Below are positions 1 to 11,656 of a stretch of DNA of 42,695 nt, piece after piece. Origin of the DNA: Nitrospirota bacterium (GTDB lineage Bacteria; Nitrospirota; Nitrospiria; Nitrospirales; Nitrospiraceae); the NCBI GenBank assembly GCA_004296885.1, contig SCVN01000022.1:1-42695 (forward strand). Direction: 5' to 3'. How positions within the stretch are numbered: position 1 is the first letter of the stretch; every line of letters starts with the position of its first letter. Below the pieces are notes generated by a model that did not search any database, was not told the DNA's origin, and saw only the letters and a program-made list of their open reading frames with translations. Made by a program: the position numbers and the translations under genes.

Positions 1-831
1 CCGATCGTCGGGGACTGCAAGTCCGTCCTGCGGGAGTTGGTCCAGATTCTGCGGGCCACGGTCAACGGGGATCAAAAGGATTTGCGGAAACCCTGGCTGG
101 ACCAGATCCGCGAGTGGCAGCGGGCGCACCCGTTGGCGTATGAGCAGGACCCGAACGGGGAAATCAAGCCTCAGCATATCATCAAGCGTGTCTTTGAGCT
201 CACAAAAGACCGGGACCCGATCGTGGCGACGGACGTCGGGCAACACCAGATGTGGTCGGCCCAGTACTTCAAGCTGGCCAAGCCGAACCGGTGGTTGACC
301 TCCGGCGGACTGGGAACCATGGGATTCGGTTTTCCTGCCGCCATGGGCGCCCAAGCGGCGTTTCCGGGCAAGCTGGTGCTGTGCATCGCGGGCGATGGCA
401 GTTTCCAGATGAACACCCAGGAACTGGCCACGGCGGTGGTGAGCAAGCTGCCGGTGAAGGTCTTTATCGTGAACAACCGGTTCCACGGGATGGTCCGTCA
501 GTGGCAGGATCTGTTCTACGAGGGCCGCTATGCCTCCAGCTATCTGGACAAGACTCCCGACTTTGTCAAGCTGGCGGAGGCTTACGGGGCCGTGGGGCTG
601 CGCGCGAGCAAGGTGTCTGAGGTGGACGACGTGATCCGCGAAGCCATGGCCGTGGACAAGCCGGTCCTGATCGACGTGCCCGTGTATCAGTATGAGAATT
701 GCTACCCGATGATTCCGGCCGGGGGCTGCAACCACGAAATGATCCTGACCGATCCGCCGGAGTTGAAGAAACAGCAGCCGGCCGGCTCGAAGGTGGCCGG
801 CGAAGATAAGGACACGGTGCTGACCGCCTAG
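1..831 (+). CDS. ilvB: Acetolactate synthase large subunit, C-terminal part (5' end outside window)
   Basis: This is the thiamine diphosphate (ThDP)-binding catalytic half of acetohydroxyacid synthase. The enzyme condenses two pyruvates, or pyruvate and 2-oxobutyrate, in the first common step of valine, leucine and isoleucine synthesis. The frame is open from base 1, so the true start lies upstream; the visible part is about 276 residues. The ThDP/Mg motif GDGSFQMN is followed about 25 residues later by the closing VNN, and the upstream stretch ATDVGQHQMW is typical of the C-terminal domain. The C-terminal tail is short and charged. The regulatory subunit gene ilvN starts 18 bases downstream, as in most ilvBN operons. 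Other ThDP enzymes such as glyoxylate carboligase are possible from this fragment alone, but the ilvN-ilvC context makes IlvB very likely. Confidence 0.95.
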   Translation, partial: PIVGDCKSVLRELVQILRATVNGDQKDLRKPWLDQIREWQRAHPLAYEQDPNGEIKPQHIIKRVFELTKDRDPIVATDVGQHQMWSAQYFKLAKPNRWLTSGGLGTMGFGFPAAMGAQAAFPGKLVLCIAGDGSFQMNTQELATAVVSKLPVKVFIVNNRFHGMVRQWQDLFYEGRYASSYLDKTPDFVKLAEAYGAVGLRASKVSEVDDVIREAMAVDKPVLIDVPVYQYENCYPMIPAGGCNHEMILTDPPELKKQQPAGSKVAGEDKDTVLTA

Positions 832-849
832 CGGTCGCCGGATACACAC

Positions 850-1368
850 ATGGGTCACATCATTTCCGTCATCGTCGAGAACAAGTTCGGAGTCCTGTCG
901 CGGGTGGCGGGCCTGTTCAGTGGACGTGGCTTCAACATCGAGAGCCTCTCGGTGGCCCCCACGCTGGACCCCTCCATGTCCATGATGACGATCGTAACCA
1001 CAGGCGACGATCGGATCATCGAGCAGATCGTCAAGCAGCTCAACAAGCTGATCGACGTGATCAAGGTCGTGGACCTCAACGAGAGTGAGTTCGTCGAGCG
1101 CGAAACGGCGCTCATCAAGGTCCACACCAAGCCGGAGGACCGGGCGGAGGCGCTGCGGATCGCGGACATTTTTCGCGCCAGAGTGGTCGACTCCACGCCG
1201 ACGACCTACACGATCGAAATCACCGGCGACACGAACAAGATCGAGGCGATCATCAACCTGCTGCAGCCGCTCGGCATCAAGGAACTGGCCAGGACCGGAC
1301 GGGTGGCGATCGCGCGGGAGCCGGTCCGTCCTGCGGCGACGCAGCCGAAGCGCGTCGCCAAAGAATAA
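850..1368 (+). CDS. ilvN: Acetolactate synthase small (regulatory) subunit
   Basis: This is the regulatory subunit of acetohydroxyacid synthase. It activates IlvB and carries the valine feedback site. The 172 residues match the usual bacterial length of 160-180. An ACT domain occupies about residues 3-78, with the typical opening SVIVENKFGVLSRVAGLFSG, where the valine site lies. The second half is the usual IlvN C-terminal domain, with the stretch PTTYTIEITGD. The ATG at 850 aligns with the family start, although no strong ribosome site is visible in front of it. It lies 18 bases after ilvB and 72 bases before ilvC, and a strong hairpin occupies the gap to ilvC. Confidence 0.95.
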   Translation: MGHIISVIVENKFGVLSRVAGLFSGRGFNIESLSVAPTLDPSMSMMTIVTTGDDRIIEQIVKQLNKLIDVIKVVDLNESEFVERETALIKVHTKPEDRAEALRIADIFRARVVDSTPTTYTIEITGDTNKIEAIINLLQPLGIKELARTGRVAIAREPVRPAATQPKRVAKE

Positions 1369-2454
<1,086 letters not shown>

Positions 2455-2493
2455 CGGGGCCGGCTCGGCCTGCCTGCATCCAGAGGCTTGTGA

Positions 2494-3141
2494 ATGGACC
2501 GCGCAGTCGGCATCCCGATCGTCAAAGAAGGCTTTCCGTTCGTCCTGGGCGCCGGCGGGCCGGCCGTCCTGGCCGTCAGCCTTGGATGGACCGGCCCGGC
2601 GCTGGCCTTGGGAGCGGCGGCGTTGTTTATCGCGTGGTTCTTCCGGAATCCCAAGCGGGTGGCGCCTCCTTCGCTCCATGCGGTCGTGGCGCCGGGCGAC
2701 GGGAAAGTCATTGCGGTGACCGAGGAGTATGAGCCTCGGTTTCTGAAAGACCAGGGGATCCGGGTCAGCATTTTTCTGAACATTTTTAACGTGCACGTCA
2801 ACCGGATTCCGTGCCAGGGCACGGTGGAAGACGTGGCCTATCAACCGGGGACCTTCGTTGCGGCGAATCGCCCGGATGCAACGCTGCGGAACGAGCAGAA
2901 CGCATTGATGATCCGGACCGCGCAAGGGGCCAAGGTGCTGTGCGTGCAGGTGGCGGGGCTGATCGCGCGTCGGATCGTCTGTTGGGTTTCTCCCGGCGAC
3001 CGCGTGGCCTGCGGGGAACGGTACGGTCTGATCCGGTTCGGATCGCGGATGGACATGTTTTTGCCGGCGGGCACGAAGGTGCTGGTGGGGGTCGGCATGC
3101 ATGTGAAAGGGGGCGAGACCATTCTCGCCGAGTTGGGGTAG
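2494..3141 (+). CDS. psd: Phosphatidylserine decarboxylase proenzyme, short type
   Basis: Psd decarboxylates phosphatidylserine to phosphatidylethanolamine at the inner membrane. The 215-residue length fits the short PSD-A form rather than the roughly 300-residue E. coli form. A hydrophobic hairpin spans about residues 15-50. NVHVNR near residue 99 carries the conserved histidine region. G183-S184 in the context LIRFGSRMDMF is the self-cleavage site; the serine becomes the pyruvoyl group of the alpha chain. It lies 39 bases after ilvC and 10 bases before pssA, the enzyme that makes its substrate, so the two steps are co-transcribed. No usable in-frame start lies closer to ilvC, and the start at 2494 keeps the family N-terminus. 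Confidence 0.93.
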   Translation: MDRAVGIPIVKEGFPFVLGAGGPAVLAVSLGWTGPALALGAAALFIAWFFRNPKRVAPPSLHAVVAPGDGKVIAVTEEYEPRFLKDQGIRVSIFLNIFNVHVNRIPCQGTVEDVAYQPGTFVAANRPDATLRNEQNALMIRTAQGAKVLCVQVAGLIARRIVCWVSPGDRVACGERYGLIRFGSRMDMFLPAGTKVLVGVGMHVKGGETILAELG

Positions 3142-3151
3142 GGAAACCGTC

Positions 3152-3964
3152 ATGCGGGGGCCCTTCATGAAGGACAAGGATAACAAGCCGGTGGCCAAGG
3201 AATTGAAGCGCAAACGGGCGGTGTATCTGATTCCGAATCTTTTGACCACCGGGAATCTGTTCAGCGGGCTGTTCGCGATTCTGGCCGTCTTCGACGAGCA
3301 CTATCTGGCTGCGGCGGTGGCCATCCTCGTCGCACTCGTTTTTGACATGTTGGACGGGAAGTCCGCACGGTGGACGAACAGCACCAGCCAGTTCGGGGTG
3401 GAGTATGACTCCCTGGCCGATCTGGTGGCTTTTGGCGTGGCGCCGGGGCTGTTGATGTATGGCTGGGGGTTGAAGGCCCAAGGCATGCTGGGCGCGGCGG
3501 TCATGTTCGCGTTTGTGGCCTGCGGCGCATTGCGGCTGGCCCGATTCAACGTGATGGCCACCGTCAGCGAGAGCAAGTATTTTACCGGCTTGCCGATTCC
3601 GGCCGCGGCCAGCGTGGTCGCGACGCTGATCATCTTCGACCATCACGTCGTCGGGTTGCCGGTGGAAAACAAACCGCTGGCGGTCCTCGTCATGACGCTC
3701 GTGCTGGCGTTCTTGATGGTCAGTACGGTCAAGTACCGGAGTTTCAAGGATTTGAAGTTCAGGCCGGGCCACCATTTCAACTATCTGGTCTGGGCGATCC
3801 TGGGGATCATGCTCGTGATCGCCTGGCCGCAGTTGATGCTGTTCCTGGTCTTCGCCGGCTATGCGGCGCTGGGGCCCGTCGAAAAGGCGGTGAGCCTGGT
3901 GGCCAGAGCGTTCGGCAAGAAGAGCGGCCAGGATCAGGCGGCGTTGGAGTCGAAAGAGTCGTAG
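3152..3964 (+). CDS. pssA: CDP-diacylglycerol-serine O-phosphatidyltransferase
   Basis: PssA is an integral membrane enzyme that joins CDP-diacylglycerol and serine to form phosphatidylserine, the substrate of the adjacent Psd. It has 270 residues and about seven or eight hydrophobic segments. The CDP-alcohol phosphatidyltransferase signature reads DMLDGKSARWTNS, then FGVEYDSLAD, giving the D-G-x2-A-R-x8-G-x3-D-x3-D pattern with every acidic residue present. The N-terminus KRKRAVYLIPNLLTTGNLFSG is the usual type II PssA start. ATG 3152 and ATG 3167 are both possible; the first is kept because it lies 10 bases after psd. The T-box leader of leuA begins directly after its stop. Confidence 0.94.
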   Translation: MRGPFMKDKDNKPVAKELKRKRAVYLIPNLLTTGNLFSGLFAILAVFDEHYLAAAVAILVALVFDMLDGKSARWTNSTSQFGVEYDSLADLVAFGVAPGLLMYGWGLKAQGMLGAAVMFAFVACGALRLARFNVMATVSESKYFTGLPIPAAASVVATLIIFDHHVVGLPVENKPLAVLVMTLVLAFLMVSTVKYRSFKDLKFRPGHHFNYLVWAILGIMLVIAWPQLMLFLVFAGYAALGPVEKAVSLVARAFGKKSGQDQAALESKES

Positions 3965-3971
3965 TTGAGCG

Positions 3972-4230
3972 GCGTCGAAGAGGAGTAGTAGGCGGTCCCG
4001 ACGGACCGGAGAGAGCTGGTGGGTGGTGCGAACCAGCCCGTCGGCCGCTGAACTCGCCTCGGAGCCGAGCCCGTGAAGTCCTCCGGATGGTAATGGGCTC
4101 CGCGTGACCCACGATAAGGGTCCAATGAAGGGCGCCGGAGTTTCAATCGGAAACTCCGATGCCGAAGCAGGGTGGTACCACGGAGCGCGATGAGCCTTCG
4201 TCCCTGGGCTATGGGGGGAAGGCTTTTTTT
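3972..4230 (+). promoter_or_regulatory. T-box riboswitch leader, Leu (CUC) specifier, upstream of leuA
   Basis: The landmarks of a tRNA-sensing T-box appear in order. An AGTA element (the S-turn strand of the specifier loop) lies near 3984. The distal stem I sequence GAGAGAGCTGG, then GGTGGTGCGAACCAGC, spans 4009-4036. GAA-CTC-G at 4050-4056 has CTC at 4053-4055 as a leucine specifier. A 9-bp hairpin lies at about 4136-4159. The T-box core AAGCAGGGTGGTACCACGG is at 4165-4183, whose TGG bulge pairs with the tRNA CCA end. A terminator follows at 4193-4230. Uncharged tRNA-Leu would stabilise the antiterminator and permit transcription of leuA. The specifier matches the gene controlled. Stem boundaries were drawn by eye. 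Confidence 0.93.
4193..4230 (+). terminator. Intrinsic terminator of the leuA T-box
   Basis: The arm AGCCTTC...CCC (4193-4203) pairs with GGG...GAAGGCT (4213-4223), with one G-G mismatch and one G-T pair in the middle, and is followed by seven T (4224-4230). Its 5' side lies directly after the T-box core, so antiterminator and terminator are mutually exclusive, as expected for a transcriptional T-box. Confidence 0.9.
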
Positions 4231-4249
4231 ATTGGAGGAGGGCAGGGCC

Positions 4250-5803
4250 ATGACGCGCATGATCCGAATCTTTGACACCACCTTGCGGGACGGGGAACAG
4301 TCGCCAGGGGCGAGCATGAACCTGGAAGAGAAGCTCATGATCGCCAAACAATTGGCCCGCCTGGGGGTGGATATCATCGAGGCGGGTTTTGCCTACAGCT
4401 CGCCCGGCGATTTCGAGGCGGTCCGGCAGGTCGCCCAGGAAGTGGAGGGGCCCACGATTTGCAGTTTGGCTCGGGCGAGGCCCGAAGATATCGACCGGGC
4501 GTGGGAAGCGCTGAAGGGCGCGCCGAAGGTGCGCATCCATACGTTTCTCTCGACCTCGGACATTCATCTGAAGCACCAATTCCGGATGAGTCGCGAGGAA
4601 GCGTTGAAGCGTGCGGTTGAGATGGTGCAGCGGGCGCGAGGCCACGTCGAAGACGTGGAGTTTTCGCCGATGGACGCCAGCCGGTCGGACCCGACCTACC
4701 TCTATGAGGTGATCGAGGCGGTCATCGCCGCCGGGGCCGGCACGGTCAACATTCCCGATACGGTGGGTTACACGAGTCCGCAGGAGTTCGGCCGGCTGAT
4801 CCGCGGGATCCGAGAGAAGGTGAAGAACAGTGACCGGGCGGTCATTTCGGTCCACTGCCACAATGACTTGGGGCTGGCCGTGGCTAACTCCCTGGCGGCG
4901 GTGTTGGAAGGGGCCGGGCAGGTGGAGTGCACCATCAACGGGATCGGCGAGCGGGCAGGCAACGCCTCGCTGGAAGAGATCGCGATGGGGCTGCGGACCC
5001 GCAAGGACTTCTACGGGGCCGATACCAACATCCGAACGGAGGAAATCATCAAGACCAGCCGCCTCGTCAGCAAGATCACGGGGATGGCGGTGCAGCCGAA
5101 CAAGGCCATCGTGGGCGCCAATGCCTTCGCCCACACCTCCGGCATCCACCAGGACGGTCTCCTCAAAGAGAAGAGCACCTATGAGATCATGCGTCCCGAA
5201 TCGGTGGGGTTGACCCAGAGCAAGCTCATCATGGGGAAGCTGTCGGGCCGGCATGCGTTCCGGCAGAAGCTCGAGGAACTGGGGTACAAGCTGTCCGACG
5301 AGGAGGTCAATCACGCCTTCACGCGGTTCAAACGGCTGGCGGATCAGAAGAAGGAAGTCTACGAAGAAGACTTGGAAGCCATCGTATCGGACGAGGTGTC
5401 GAAGATTCCGGAGCGCTATGTGCTCAAGTCGCTCTATGTCGAGAGCGGCACGAGCAAGACTCCCACGGCGACGGTCGAACTGGAGATCGACGGGCAGCCG
5501 GTGAAGCAGACCGGGACCGGCGACGGGCCGGTGGATGCGGCCTATCGCACCATCGCCGCCATGACCCAAACCAAGAGTTGCCTGCTGGGTTACTCGGTGG
5601 AGGCGATCACCGGAGGTACCGATTCGCAGGGCGAGGTTTCCGTGCGGCTGCAGGAAGACGGGAAGACGGCCAGCGGACACGGATCCGATACCGACATCAT
5701 CGTGGCCTCCGCGCGGGCCTATCTCAACGGGTTGAATAAGCTGGCGTTCTGGGCTTCGAAACACTTTGATCCAGGGCAGAAGGCCGGCTTGATTTACCAA
5801 TAA
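4250..5803 (+). CDS. leuA: 2-isopropylmalate synthase
   Basis: LeuA condenses acetyl-CoA with 2-oxoisovalerate in the first committed step of leucine synthesis. The ATG at 4250 has a strong ribosome site (GGAGGAGG) at 4234-4241 and gives 517 residues, normal for LeuA type 1. The start of the TIM barrel reads [15 protein letters not shown]. The metal motif [16 protein letters not shown] lies at about residues 202-217, followed by [17 protein letters not shown]. The C-terminal regulatory LeuA-dimer domain, where leucine feeds back, covers roughly residues 375-505. A longer frame would start inside the T-box and is not used. Regulation is by the T-box leader in front. leuB follows 58 bases downstream. 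Confidence 0.97.
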
Positions 5804-5861
5804 TGCGGCGGTACAGTGGCGCCGCATCAGTCGGTATGGGAGTCGAACGAGGAGTGAAGGA

Positions 5862-6938
5862 ATGAAGGCGCAGATTGCGGTCTTGGCCGGTGACGGTGTA
5901 GGAAAAGAAATTGTCCCCGAAGCGGTCAAACTGCTTCAGGCGGCGGCGGAGAAGTTTCACCATACGTTCACGTTTGTGCCGGCCCATGTCGGCGGCTCGG
6001 CGATCGACGCAGTCGGCGTGCCCTTGCCCGACGAGACCCTGGCGCTGGCCAAGTCGAGCGATGCGGTGTTGCTGGGCGCCGTGGGAGGGCCGAAGTGGGA
6101 AGGGTTGGATTATAAGATCCGACCCGAACGGGCATTGCTCGGGCTCCGCGAACAGTTGGGGCTGTTCGCAAATCTCCGTCCGGCCAAGTTGTATTCCATG
6201 TTGAGCGACGCCTCCACGTTGAAGCGCGAGGTCATCGAGGGCATTGATCTGCTGGTCGTGCGCGAGCTGACCGGCGGGATCTATTTCGGGAAACCGAAAG
6301 GCATCGAGAAGACCCCGGACGGTGAACGGGGCGTCAATACGGAAGTCTATACGACCCAGGAGATCCAGCGCATCGCCAAGGTCGCATTCGAGGCGGCTCG
6401 AATGCGGCGGCGCAAGGTCACCTCCGTGGACAAGGCCAATGTGCTGGAATCCTCGGAACTGTGGCGGCGGGTGGTCATCGACGTCCACCGGGGCTATCCG
6501 GACGTGGAACTGAGCCATATGTATGTAGATAACTGCGCGATGCAGTTGATCCGCAATCCCAAGCAATTCGACGTACTGGTGACCAGCAACTTGTTCGGAG
6601 ATATCTTGAGCGACGAAGCGGCGATGTTGACCGGCTCCATCGGCATGCTCCCTTCCGCCAGCATCGGCGCGAAGGCGGGGATGTATGAGCCGATCCATGG
6701 GAGCGCGCCCGACATTGCCGGAAAAAATGTGGCGAATCCCATCGCGACGATCGCCTCCGCCGCCATGCTCCTGTCCTACCAACTTCGTCTGGACAAGGAA
6801 GCAGAGGCCATTGAACGGGCGATCCAGCAAACCTTGGAGCAGGGCTATCGGACCAAGGATATTCAGGGCCCCGGGACCAAGCTGGTCGGGACGGTCGAAA
6901 TGGGCGATGCCATCCTGAAGAATTTCCGGCAAGGCTGA
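5862..6938 (+). CDS. leuB: 3-isopropylmalate dehydrogenase
   Basis: LeuB oxidatively decarboxylates 3-isopropylmalate with NAD and Mg or Mn, the third leucine step. The 358 residues match the family. The N-terminus [18 protein letters not shown] binds substrate and cofactor. [10 protein letters not shown] carries the substrate arginine and tyrosine region. [20 protein letters not shown] has the metal-binding aspartates, and [18 protein letters not shown] is the adenine-binding loop. GAGGAGTGAAGG before the ATG is a good ribosome site. leuC and leuD, the second step, are not in this window. An NHL-repeat gene starts 14 bases after its stop. Confidence 0.97.
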
Positions 6939-6952
6939 GGCATAGCTGTCTG

Positions 6953-8149
6953 ATGCTTGCATGCGCCAAATCCGGGACGATCGGAACGGTGGCCGGCACC
7001 GGGGAGCCGGGCCATGCGGGAGACGGGGGGGCTGCTACCCTGGCTTGCCTGAACGAGCCCAAGAGTCTCGCGGTGGCCAAGGGCTGCCTGTACATTGCGG
7101 ACAGCGAGAATCACGTCATTCGGAAAGTCGACCTGGCAAGCGGGCTCATCAGCACCGTGGCCGGATGTCCGGCTGGCATCACGCCGGTTCCTGTGGACAC
7201 AGTGGCGGCCGACGAGTCGTTCGACGACGATCCGCTCGGCGGGCCCAGCCAGGCCATGCCGGAGAAGTTTGCTCAACTCGGAGACTTGAGCGGGACCGTT
7301 CGGTTCGTGGTGGGCACTGCGCCCAAAACCGGACGGTTCGAAGGCGATGGGGGGCCGGCGACGAAGGCGACGTTGAACTTTCCCTCCGCGGTGGCGTTGG
7401 ATCGGCAAGGCAACCTCTACATTGCCGACACGATGAACCATCGGGTGCGGCGGGTGGATGCGGTGACCGGTATCATCACCACCGTGGCTGGCACGGGCCA
7501 GCATCGCTGCTCCGGGGACGGGGGGCTTGCGGCCGCCGCCGCTTTGAATGAGCCTTCCGCGCTGGTGGTGGACGATCAGGGCAACCTGTTCATTGCGGAC
7601 CAGAGCAATAACCGAGTGCGCCGGGTGGATGTGCAGACCGGCGTGATCACCACGATCGCCGGCACGGGGCAAGCGGCCTACACAGGAGATGGGGGGCCGG
7701 CCACGGACTCGGGGCTGGCCGGGCCCAGTGGCCTCGCGCTCGGTCCGGATGGTATGCTCTACGTGGCCGATACATTCAACGGGCGGATCCGCATGGTCGA
7801 TCTGTCCACCGGCCTGATTGCGACGGTCGCCGGAGACGGGGGCGAGTACCGGTACCAGGGGCATCCGCAGGAGTTCTCGACGAGTCTCTCCCGCCCCTAC
7901 GGGATCGCCCTGGATGGGGAGGGCCATATCCTGGTCACGGATTCGGACAGTCATCTGATCCGGCGATGGGATCGGCGGAAGAAGATCATCACACTCGTTG
8001 CGGGAAACGGCCTGGCCCGGTTTCACGGAGATGGAGGGCCGCCGCAAGAGAGCAGCCTCAACTATCCCTTCGGGGTGGCGGTGGACGAAACGGGCAACGT
8101 CTATATCGCCGATACGTTCAATCATCGGATCCGGATGATTGCGGCTTAG
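6953..8149 (+). CDS. NHL-repeat beta-propeller protein
   Basis: This 398-residue protein is made almost wholly of NHL repeats. The unit GxGGPAxxAxLxxPxxLAxDxxGNLYIADxxNHRIRxVD recurs about six times, separated by TVAGTG or TIAGTG turns. This predicts a beta-propeller used for protein, ligand or RNA binding. No signal peptide, transmembrane segment or catalytic domain is seen. The first repeat begins almost at the start codon, so the protein looks cytoplasmic or the true start may be missed. NHL proteins of this type are more often secreted. It sits between leuB and asd with gaps of 14 and 27 bases, so it is probably co-transcribed, but no link to amino acid synthesis is known to me. Confidence 0.85.
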   Translation: MLACAKSGTIGTVAGTGEPGHAGDGGAATLACLNEPKSLAVAKGCLYIADSENHVIRKVDLASGLISTVAGCPAGITPVPVDTVAADESFDDDPLGGPSQAMPEKFAQLGDLSGTVRFVVGTAPKTGRFEGDGGPATKATLNFPSAVALDRQGNLYIADTMNHRVRRVDAVTGIITTVAGTGQHRCSGDGGLAAAAALNEPSALVVDDQGNLFIADQSNNRVRRVDVQTGVITTIAGTGQAAYTGDGGPATDSGLAGPSGLALGPDGMLYVADTFNGRIRMVDLSTGLIATVAGDGGEYRYQGHPQEFSTSLSRPYGIALDGEGHILVTDSDSHLIRRWDRRKKIITLVAGNGLARFHGDGGPPQESSLNYPFGVAVDETGNVYIADTFNHRIRMIAA

Positions 8150-8176
8150 CCTGGTGCTGGAAAAGGGACTTGCCAG

Positions 8177-9190
8177 ATGTTGAAGAAGAAAGCGGCCTAT
8201 CAGGTGGCGGTGGTCGGCGCGACCGGAGCGGTCGGGGCCGAAATGATCCAGGTGCTGGAGGAGCGGAAGTTTCCGGTCGAGTCGTTGCATGCGCTGGCCT
8301 CGTCCCGTTCGGCCGGCGGCACGGTGTCGTTTCATGGCTCGGACGTGACGGTCGCGGAGCTGACGAAGGACTCCTTTGCCGGCATCGACATCGCCCTCTT
8401 CTCGGCCGGCAGCGACGTCAGCAAGGAATATGCGCCGATCGCGGTCAAAGCCGGTGCGGTGGTGATCGACAACAGCGCCGCCTGGCGGATGGACAAGGAC
8501 GTGCCGCTCGTGGTGCCGGAGGTGAATCCCCACGATCTGGCCAAGCACAAGGGCATTATCGCGAACCCGAATTGCTCCACGATCCAGATGGTCGTGGCGC
8601 TGAAGCCGTTGCACGACGAGGCTCGGATCCAGCGCATTGTCGTGACCACGTTCCAGTCCGTGTCCGGGACCGGCAAGGAAGCCATGGAAGAACTGATGGA
8701 GGAGTCCAAGGCGCTCCTCAGTTTCGGTCAGCCGGAGCCGAAGGTCTATCCCTATCAGATCGCGTTCAACTGCCTTCCTCATATCGACGAATTCCTGCCG
8801 ACGGGCTATACGAAGGAAGAGATGAAGATGCTCCACGAGACCAGGAAGATCATGGGGGATGCGACTATCCGGGTCACGGCTACCACGGTCCGGGTCCCGG
8901 TCTATATCGGCCATTCGGAGGCGGTCAATATCGAGACGGAGCGAAAACTCACGGCCAATGAGGCGCGGGCGCTCCTCTCGACCGCGCCGGGGGTACAGCT
9001 CTACGACGATCCGGCCCATGCCCTGTACCCGATGCCGCTGCTCGCGGCCGGGCAGGACGATGTCTATGTCGGCCGCATCCGGGAAGACGAGTCCATTCCC
9101 AACGGGCTGAATCTGTGGGTGGTGGCGGATAATCTCCGGAAGGGAGCGGCGCTGAACGCCGTCCAGATTGCCGAACTGTTGGTGCGGTAA
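8177..9190 (+). CDS. asd: Aspartate-semialdehyde dehydrogenase
   Basis: Asd reduces aspartyl phosphate to aspartate semialdehyde with NADPH. This is the branch point to lysine and diaminopimelate, threonine and methionine. The 337 residues begin with the nucleotide-binding VAVVGATGAVGAEMIQVL. The catalytic cysteine lies in IIANPNCSTIQMVVAL. The family motifs TFQSVSGTGKEAMEEL and VRVPVYIGHSEAVNIE, the latter with the catalytic histidine, follow. AAAAGGGA lies upstream of the ATG at 8177. It supplies carbon for isoleucine through threonine and diaminopimelate for the wall, linking the amino acid genes before it with the wall genes after it. Confidence 0.97.
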   Translation: MLKKKAAYQVAVVGATGAVGAEMIQVLEERKFPVESLHALASSRSAGGTVSFHGSDVTVAELTKDSFAGIDIALFSAGSDVSKEYAPIAVKAGAVVIDNSAAWRMDKDVPLVVPEVNPHDLAKHKGIIANPNCSTIQMVVALKPLHDEARIQRIVVTTFQSVSGTGKEAMEELMEESKALLSFGQPEPKVYPYQIAFNCLPHIDEFLPTGYTKEEMKMLHETRKIMGDATIRVTATTVRVPVYIGHSEAVNIETERKLTANEARALLSTAPGVQLYDDPAHALYPMPLLAAGQDDVYVGRIREDESIPNGLNLWVVADNLRKGAALNAVQIAELLVR

Positions 9191-9192
9191 CG

Positions 9193-9444
9193 ATGCAGGA
9201 TTGGAGCGGCCTGGGCAAATGGCTGCTGGCGACCGGCGGCTTGCTTGCGCTGCTTGGGGCGTTCCTGCTCGTGGCCGGGAAGTGGTCCGCGGAAGGAAGC
9301 CCCGGCTGGCTGAGTTGGTTTGGCAAACTCCCCGGCGACATTCTGATCAAGCGGGATCACGTCACATTCTATTTTCCCCTGGCCACCTGCCTGCTGCTCA
9401 GTCTGCTGGTCAGCCTTGTGCTCTACCTGCTGTCCAAGCGATGA
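9193..9444 (+). CDS. DUF2905 family small membrane protein
   Basis: This 83-residue protein has two hydrophobic helices, about residues 9-28 and 59-79. Between them is the family signature LSWFGKLPGDILIKRDHVTFYFPL, matching DUF2905 by its P-G-D and F-Y-F-P elements. Function is unknown. It starts two bases after asd ends, and its TGA overlaps the ATG of the SpoIID-domain gene, so it is translationally coupled in the same operon. DUF2905 genes are often found near ruvB and queA in other bacteria, and queA is two genes away here. Confidence 0.85.
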   Translation: MQDWSGLGKWLLATGGLLALLGAFLLVAGKWSAEGSPGWLSWFGKLPGDILIKRDHVTFYFPLATCLLLSLLVSLVLYLLSKR

Positions 9445-10637
9445 TGGCCCGGCCCCTCAGTGTCCTGCTCGGGTGTTTGTGCCTCGTCACGGCCGTGCCT
9501 GCTTGCGGGCAGGCGGAAGATGCCATCCGTGTATTGCTTGCCCAGGATGCATCACTGATCCAGGTCTCCACCGAACGGCGTTTGTCGGTACAGGGCGCCG
9601 GCGGCCACGAGCGCGTCTTCACGGACTCCATCATTATTGCCGCCTCGCCTGATGGCACATGGAGCCTCAACGGCGAGGTTCTCTCCGGGACCGGGCTGAT
9701 GCTCTCGGGCAGCGGAGCGGGCCTGACGTTGCGGGTCGGGCAAGGAATCGAATCCAACGCCGCCCCCCTTGTCGTGAGCGGAACCTTGCGGGTTTTGCGT
9801 GGAAAGGGCCCTGGCAGCGTGGCCGTCGTCAATCACGTGGATGTGGAGGAGTATGTCAAAGGCGTGGTGCCGGCCGAGATGAGTGCCGCCTGGCATCCGG
9901 AGGCGCTGAAGGTCCAGGCCGTGCTGGCCAGGACCTATGCCCTCTACCAGCGTCAGGCGAACCGGGAGCGGGAGTATGACGTGGTTGCGAGTACGCTGGA
10001 TCAGGTGTATCGGGGCCGCCAGGGGGTGGATCAGCGGGTCCAGGACGCAGTGGAGTCCACCAAAAGTCTTGCGTTGACCTATCAAAACGAGCCGATCCTG
10101 GCCGCATTTTCCTCGACGGCTGCCGGACCGACCGAGGATGCGATGAATGTGTGGTCCAAGGACTTGCCCTATTTGAAGGGCGTCGACTGTCCCTTCGATG
10201 CCAATTCGCCTTACTACCAATGGCGCGCCGAGTTCAAGCTGCAAGACTTGGAAGACAAGCTCGGCCGGCAGGGCCTCGCGATCGGCACGATCGCGAACCT
10301 GACGCCCTTGGCCTACAGCGCCGCTGGGCGAGTGGCCAGATTGCGCATCCTCCATTCCCAGGGCGAGTTGGTGCTGCGGGGCGAGGATCTGCGGCGGCTC
10401 GTGGGCTATGGGGTGATCCAAAGCACCCAATTTGAAGTCGAGTCCATCGGCAAGACCGTGGTCCTCTCCGGGCGGGGCGCCGGCCACGCGGTCGGGCTTT
10501 GCCAATGGGGAGCAAAGGAGATGGCCGACCTGGGGTATCGGTTCGACACGATTCTGCGCTACTATTTCCCTGGCACGGAACTCAAGACCGTGCGCGGCGC
10601 GGCGCGCTCGCCCGGTCCAAGCCCTGACTCCCGCTGA
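9441..10637 (+). CDS. SpoIID/LytB-domain protein, exported
   Basis: SpoIID-type proteins are lytic transglycosylases or amidase enhancers acting on peptidoglycan. The ATG at 9441 overlaps the previous stop and gives 398 residues with a signal sequence (MMARPLSVLLGCLCLVTAVPACG). A cysteine near residue 22 could be lipidated, but the lipobox (VPAC) is poor. The core domain reads VDVEEYVKGVVPAEMSA, then HPEALKVQAVLARTYALYQ, with the conserved glutamate. The C-terminus has GRGAGHAVGLCQWGAKEMA, the standard SpoIID ending. The organism shows no other sporulation gene here, so the role is probably wall remodelling in a Gram-negative cell. Its stop overlaps the queA start. Confidence 0.88.
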   Translation: MMARPLSVLLGCLCLVTAVPACGQAEDAIRVLLAQDASLIQVSTERRLSVQGAGGHERVFTDSIIIAASPDGTWSLNGEVLSGTGLMLSGSGAGLTLRVGQGIESNAAPLVVSGTLRVLRGKGPGSVAVVNHVDVEEYVKGVVPAEMSAAWHPEALKVQAVLARTYALYQRQANREREYDVVASTLDQVYRGRQGVDQRVQDAVESTKSLALTYQNEPILAAFSSTAAGPTEDAMNVWSKDLPYLKGVDCPFDANSPYYQWRAEFKLQDLEDKLGRQGLAIGTIANLTPLAYSAAGRVARLRILHSQGELVLRGEDLRRLVGYGVIQSTQFEVESIGKTVVLSGRGAGHAVGLCQWGAKEMADLGYRFDTILRYYFPGTELKTVRGAARSPGPSPDSR

Positions 10638-11656
10638 TGCAGCTCGCCGAGTTCGACGTTCCTTTTGACCCTTCCCTCATTGCCGATCGCCCCGCCGAGC
10701 CTCGGGATCAGGCCCGTCTGCTGGTGGCGCCCCAATCGGGCGGGCCGTTATCCCATAAGAAGGTGGCGGACTTGCCGGCCCTGTTGGCCGAGGGAGATCT
10801 CTTGGTCGTCAACGACAGCAAGGTCCTGGCCGCCAGGTTGACCGGACGGAAGCGGCCGGGAGGCGGGAAAGTCGAACTGCTTCTGGTGAGGCCGCTCGGC
10901 CCCGATATCTGGGAAGCCTTGATCAAGGGACGGATGAAGCCGGGGCAAGTAATCGACCTGGATGCCCGGACGAGCGTGACCGTTCTTGCACAGGGCCCGA
11001 CAGGCAGTACGGTACAGTTCTCGTCCGCGCAGCCGGCTGCCGATGTCATGAATCTGCTCGGCCAAATGCCGTTGCCGCCCTATATCAAACGAGAACCGGT
11101 CGATCAGGATCGCACCTGGTATCAGACCATCTTTGCCCGGCCGGAAGGCTCGATCGCCGCGCCAACCGCGAGCCTGCACTTTACGGAAGGGCTCCGCGAG
11201 GCCTTGCGAGAACGGGGGATCGGGCTGGCCACGGTGACGTTGCACGTCGGCCCCGGCACGTTCAGGCCGGTGACGGCCGACCGGATCGAGGACCATGTCA
11301 TGCATCCAGAGCGCTTTGAGGTTCCGGCGGAAACGGTCGAGGCAATCAGACGAGCAAAGGCGGCAGGCAAGCGGGTGGTGGCGGTGGGAACGACCGTCGT
11401 GCGGACGCTGGAGGCTTCAGGCAATGAGGCGGGCATGGTCCGGTCGATGACCGGAGACACGGCGCTCTTTATTACCCCCGGTTATCGGTTCCGCGTCGTG
11501 GACGCGCTGATGACTAACTTTCATCTGCCCCGCACGACGTTGGTCATGCTGGTTTCGGCTTTCGTGGGCTTGGACCGGCTGCGGGAAATCTATCGAGAGG
11601 CGGTGCAGGAGCGGTATCGGTTCTATTCGTATGGCGACACGATGCTGATTCTTTGA
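10637..11656 (+). CDS. queA: tRNA preQ1(34) S-adenosylmethionine ribosyltransferase-isomerase
   Basis: QueA moves the ribosyl group of SAM onto preQ1 at tRNA position 34 to make epoxyqueuosine. The 339 residues fit the family. Motifs include the start FDVPFDPSLIADRPAEPRD, DLLVVNDSKVLAARLTGRK, LPPYIKREP and VTLHVGPGTFRPV, then TNFHLPRTTLVMLVSAFVG near the C-terminus. The start codon overlaps the preceding TGA, which supports translational coupling to the SpoIID-domain gene. It is the last gene of this plus-strand run and converges on the SurA-like gene 88 bases away. Confidence 0.96.
   Translation: MQLAEFDVPFDPSLIADRPAEPRDQARLLVAPQSGGPLSHKKVADLPALLAEGDLLVVNDSKVLAARLTGRKRPGGGKVELLLVRPLGPDIWEALIKGRMKPGQVIDLDARTSVTVLAQGPTGSTVQFSSAQPAADVMNLLGQMPLPPYIKREPVDQDRTWYQTIFARPEGSIAAPTASLHFTEGLREALRERGIGLATVTLHVGPGTFRPVTADRIEDHVMHPERFEVPAETVEAIRRAKAAGKRVVAVGTTVVRTLEASGNEAGMVRSMTGDTALFITPGYRFRVVDALMTNFHLPRTTLVMLVSAFVGLDRLREIYREAVQERYRFYSYGDTMLIL

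Follow-up and report, generated by a model that had tools for sequence, protein, structure and literature searches.

The ilv-leu T-box of Bacillus subtilis reads a leucine CUC specifier, works by transcriptional antitermination and heads the whole ilvBHC-leuABCD operon. For Geobacter sulfurreducens and G. metallireducens, a leuA T-box with predicted specificity for tRNA-Leu(GAG) has already been published (PMC2494555, PMC2700814). According to a review, transcriptional T-boxes generally require a long Stem I with an AGAGA/UGxRA tip, and loss of this tip is typical of translational ones (PMC7583486). Our literature search, which took in few subscription papers, retrieved no T-box from Nitrospirae or Nitrospirota; the phylum table of a 2008 survey has no Nitrospirota row, and the phylum is unnamed in the main text of the TBDB and 2025 papers.

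Here, we describe a T-box upstream of leuA in a Nitrospirota bacterium (assembly GCA_004296885.1, contig SCVN01000022.1, positions 1 to 42,695; this whole stretch of 42,695 nucleotides is referred to as the window). Like the B. subtilis ilv-leu element, it has a Leu CUC specifier and the architecture of transcriptional antitermination, but the B. subtilis T-box precedes the entire ilvBHC-leuABCD operon, whereas that of the window sits between the ilv and the leu parts. With the Geobacter leuA T-box it shares leucine specificity, the predicted tRNA-Leu(GAG) and the leuA target, and Geobacter relatives likewise carry the T-box behind pssA in the order ilvBNC-psd-pssA-leuA. In contrast to those of the Nitrospiraceae, most Geobacter T-boxes are preceded by more than 100 nt of intergenic gap and by a strong sigma-70 promoter. 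The leader is a known kind of switch, the additional detail being its apparent position inside a long operon without a recognisable promoter of its own. It adds a family-wide T-box to the Nitrospirota, a phylum that includes nitrifying bacteria.

The leuA locus

The genes of the locus, all on the forward strand, are as follows.

37-3964 (+): upstream genes from ilvB (5' part lost at the contig start) to pssA, identified by NCBIfam matches, with gaps of 10-72 nt and an order that is kept in relatives
850-1368 (+): ilvN (NCBIfam)
1441-2454 (+): ilvC (NCBIfam)
2494-3141 (+): psd (NCBIfam)
3152-3964 (+): pssA (NCBIfam)
4250-5803 (+): leuA, 2-isopropylmalate synthase
5862-6938 (+): leuB (NCBIfam)
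6953-8149 (+): gene for an NHL-repeat protein, placed here by spacing and co-occurrence in relatives
8177-9190 (+): asd (NCBIfam)

An earlier note on this DNA, made from the sequence alone, had proposed leuA as the target of the T-box and a Nitrospirota-like genome as its source. Both proposals held: the gene matched TIGR00973 at 737 bits (cut-off 598.7), with several curated models in agreement, and the closest named LeuA relatives are from Nitrospira sp. The start codon of leuA is the ATG at 4250, preceded by GGAGGAGGG. Between ilvB and asd, only the pssA-leuA gap, which holds the T-box, exceeds 72 nt. The gaps before leuB, the NHL gene and asd are short (58, 14 and 27 nt, respectively), and no terminator-like sites were seen in them, which is compatible with the earlier note's suggestion that these three genes may share the control of leuA. 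From this spacing and the co-occurrence of the genes in relatives, leuB through asd (5862 to 9190) are probably on the same transcript as leuA. In one Nitrospira genome (L032), a 130-codon open reading frame that looks cupin-like by eye (7578-7970) lies between leuA and leuB; it is absent from the window.

A complete T-box precedes leuA

The earlier note had also suggested a comparison with the Rfam T-box model. In a search with an E-value threshold, RF00230 covered positions 3966-4208 (+) end to end (model 1-219 of 219) with 83.7 bits and an E-value of 6.3e-19, bearing out the T-box assignment, though this score falls short of the curated gathering score of 93 bits. For this reason, a default-threshold Rfam scan of the window returned no match. 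The whole-genome search with RF00230 found one T-box only, the same match, with an E-value of 1.4e-18. Positions 3966-4230 are a complete class I (transcriptional) T-box, in which we located every landmark that had been reported, namely those of Stem I, the CTC specifier, the T-box core and a competing terminator with seven T:

3980-4060 (+): Stem I, base helix 3980-3983 with 4057-4060, from the RF00230 alignment (helices 1-4 of the covariation test)
4010-4014 (+): AGAGA T-loop of the Stem I tip, for docking of the tRNA elbow; seen in the sequence, invariant in the 22-member alignment, motif as in PMC7583486
4027-4031 (+): the other T-loop of this tip, UGCGA, which fits the consensus UGxRA; from the sequence and PMC7583486
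4053-4055 (+): specifier codon CTC (Leu), from the RF00230 alignment
4067-4100 (+): Stem II, 6 pairs, 5 of them with two-sided changes, 99% paired
4101-4122 (+): Stem IIA/B pseudoknot, whose second helix (helix 7) covaries in 3 of 5 pairs
4131-4163 (+): Stem III, two-sided changes in 11 of 12 pairs
4168-4206 (+): antiterminator with the T-box bulge UGGU at 4173-4176, helices 9-10 100% paired, predicted -14.7 kcal/mol
4169-4183 (+): T-box core AGGGTGGTACCACGG
4194-4230 (+): intrinsic terminator, stem 4194-4223 and seven T at 4224-4230, 98.2% paired in 22 relatives, predicted -19.4 kcal/mol

The specifier lies in the expected GAA-CTC-G context. The genome encodes the matching tRNA-Leu(GAG) in a single copy, with its ACCA end encoded, and the UGGU bulge is complementary to this end, all of which fits the leucine specificity originally assigned to the element.

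The structure was further assessed by aligning 22 T-boxes of the window's own family. Overall, 93.2% of the cells of the named structure are paired across these relatives, compared with 33-50% when the partners were slid by 1-3 columns, and two-sided changes are found in 32 of the 55 pairs. The covariation score was 0.381 versus 0.05-0.13 for the slid controls, and no shuffle scored as high. Covariation is clear in Stem III and in the pseudoknot helices; in the terminator, it was not beyond chance among the 22 relatives, in which about 98% of the cells are paired and the pairs vary too little. The leader also folds better than all of 200 shuffled sequences (z -3.7).

Antiterminator and terminator are mutually exclusive since they share the strand 4194-4206. 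By predicted energies, the terminator fold lies about 7 kcal/mol below the forced antiterminator fold when tRNA is left out, and OFF is therefore the default fold, as expected of a default-OFF T-box. Taken as a whole, the leader is very probably a class I T-box riboswitch that recognises tRNA-Leu(GAG), with the response to the tRNA deduced from these elements. When leucyl-tRNA is plentiful, the leader would fold into the terminator, and RNA polymerase would stop before leuA. When uncharged tRNA-Leu is present, its anticodon GAG would pair with the CUC of Stem I, the AGAGA/UGCGA tip would hold its elbow, and UGGU would pair with its ACCA end, by which the antiterminator would be stabilised. Transcription would then run on into leuA and, probably, through leuB and the NHL gene to asd. 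The polymerases gated in this manner would most likely be those that started at ilvB.

Promoters and wiring of the probable operon

In the window, 15 nt separate the pssA stop codon from the base of Stem I. In the Nitrospiraceae loci, this distance is mostly 9-15 nt, and 28-58 nt in a minority; most Geobacter loci have 117-160 nt. To score promoters, we counted matches to the sigma-70 consensus, out of 12, in the 105 nt upstream of each T-box; such a consensus scan would miss other promoter types or a promoter deeper inside pssA, and the AT-rich outgroup loci (families f6, f15 and f19) are ambiguous under this score. Promoters scoring 10-11/12 were found in all six Geobacter loci, in 5/5 loci of family f9 (a sister family in the same class) and in 3/4 of family f16. 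Among approximately 45 Nitrospiraceae loci (a few genomes are counted twice), none had such a promoter, and the best score was 8/12. The best score upstream of the window's T-box was 5/12, and no promoter-like sites were found in positions 1-10700 of the window. High G+C does not account for this absence, as the regions upstream of f9 T-boxes reach 11/12 at a similar G+C. Elsewhere, the window's genome does contain such promoters, with 15 matches versus none with the reversed pattern. Upstream of ilvB, weak but recurrent TTGAC-17/18-TAnnAT candidates (9/12, individually weak) are present in the family; the window does not include the 5' end of ilvB.

The simplest reading of the locus is a T-box that would gate readthrough within an operon, an internal promoter being probably absent. 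As the Nitrospiraceae T-boxes mostly adjoin the pssA stop codon and no promoter was recognised, they are probably valves inside the operon. With moderate confidence, we thus favor a leucine-operated valve within an ilvBNC-psd-pssA-leuA-leuB-NHL-asd operon, gating polymerases begun at ilvB; our literature search found no precedent for a T-box inside an operon. If this is true, leucine starvation would lengthen the ilv-phospholipid transcript into leuA-leuB-NHL-asd, and one promoter would serve the valine/isoleucine genes, the membrane lipid genes and, on demand, the leucine genes and asd.

A real T-box with its own promoter in the 3' end of pssA, making leuA a transcription unit of its own, as it is in Geobacter, is a possibility that we weigh seriously and consider somewhat doubtful. 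T-box leaders usually begin just upstream of Stem I, those of Geobacter and f9 have dedicated promoters, and two Nitrospiraceae loci (L010 and L154) reach 8/12, higher than most shuffles. The low scores given above, here and across the family, argue against such a promoter.

Distribution and history of the element

T-boxes were found in 125 of the 395 sampled genomes of the phylum: 108 of the 110 from the window's family (Nitrospiraceae-like) and 17 in other families. The sister families within the same order had none in this sample. Wherever loci with an intact pssA-leuA junction were read, the T-box lies between these two genes. About half of the T-box matches in the sample are lost at the default Rfam thresholds, and relatives of identical anatomy fall both above and below the cut-off. 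The score of the window's leader, below that cut-off, could suggest a decayed, non-functional remnant, but given this scatter of same-anatomy relatives, the intact core elements, the strong covariation and the near-universal retention in the family, we consider a remnant very improbable. Least plausible of all is a leader-peptide attenuator or a plain terminator that senses no tRNA: leuA does have a terminator before it, and some leucine genes elsewhere are controlled by leader-peptide attenuators, but such an attenuator would not be expected to have the complete T-box architecture, the specifier and a UGGU that matches the end of the tRNA, and the covariation marks the constraint on the leader as structural.

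The order ilvB-ilvN-ilvC-psd-pssA-leuA is also present in many genomes that have no T-box, as well as in T-box-bearing Geobacter relatives. On a LeuA tree, the presence of the T-box requires at least eight changes, and LeuA of the window groups with the Nitrospirota and not with Geobacter. The element was therefore recurrently lost or moved, and a recent joint transfer of leuA and its T-box from Geobacter is unlikely. Its history may be one of ancient presence with losses, or of transfer of the leader only.

Variants in relatives

In family f9, leuA T-boxes are present in six of seven genomes, from three genera, and their Stem I stops just above the specifier loop. These leucine T-boxes (L164, L166, L167, L168, L175 and L178) have no AGAGA/UGxRA tip, yet they have a strong intrinsic terminator, and those that were scored carry the promoter TTGACA-17/18-CATAAT or TATCAT. 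We consider it an even chance that both parts of a joint reading are right, namely that the promoterless Nitrospiraceae Leu T-box is a valve inside the operon and that the transcriptional leuA T-box of this sister family functions even though its Stem I lacks the tip that binds the tRNA elbow. Versions of this one locus that have or lack a dedicated promoter, and that have or lack the tip, offer a natural series on operon wiring and on the parts that transcriptional T-boxes need.

Within the window's family, the specifier context is GAACTC in 20 of the 22 aligned members and GAACTG in L017 and L022; the CTG specifier of these two still encodes Leu and implies tRNA-Leu(CAG). Some Nitrospira T-boxes (L156, L158, L161, L162, L163 and L165) carry a palindrome, AGAATGTT...AACATTCT or a similar one, inserted into the 5' strand of Stem I, where it separates the specifier loop strand from the AGAGA loop; it is probably a dispersed repeat that forms an additional arm. 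In L153, L154 and L157, from three genera of the family, the distal loop of Stem I contains an extra hairpin. Finally, many Nitrospira loci (L009, L012, L016, L018, L027, L028 and L030) have a GCTGAAA...TTCTCGG... stretch after the terminator and before leuA that is not in the window; it looks like a dispersed repeat, and one similar stretch is present in the window's genome.
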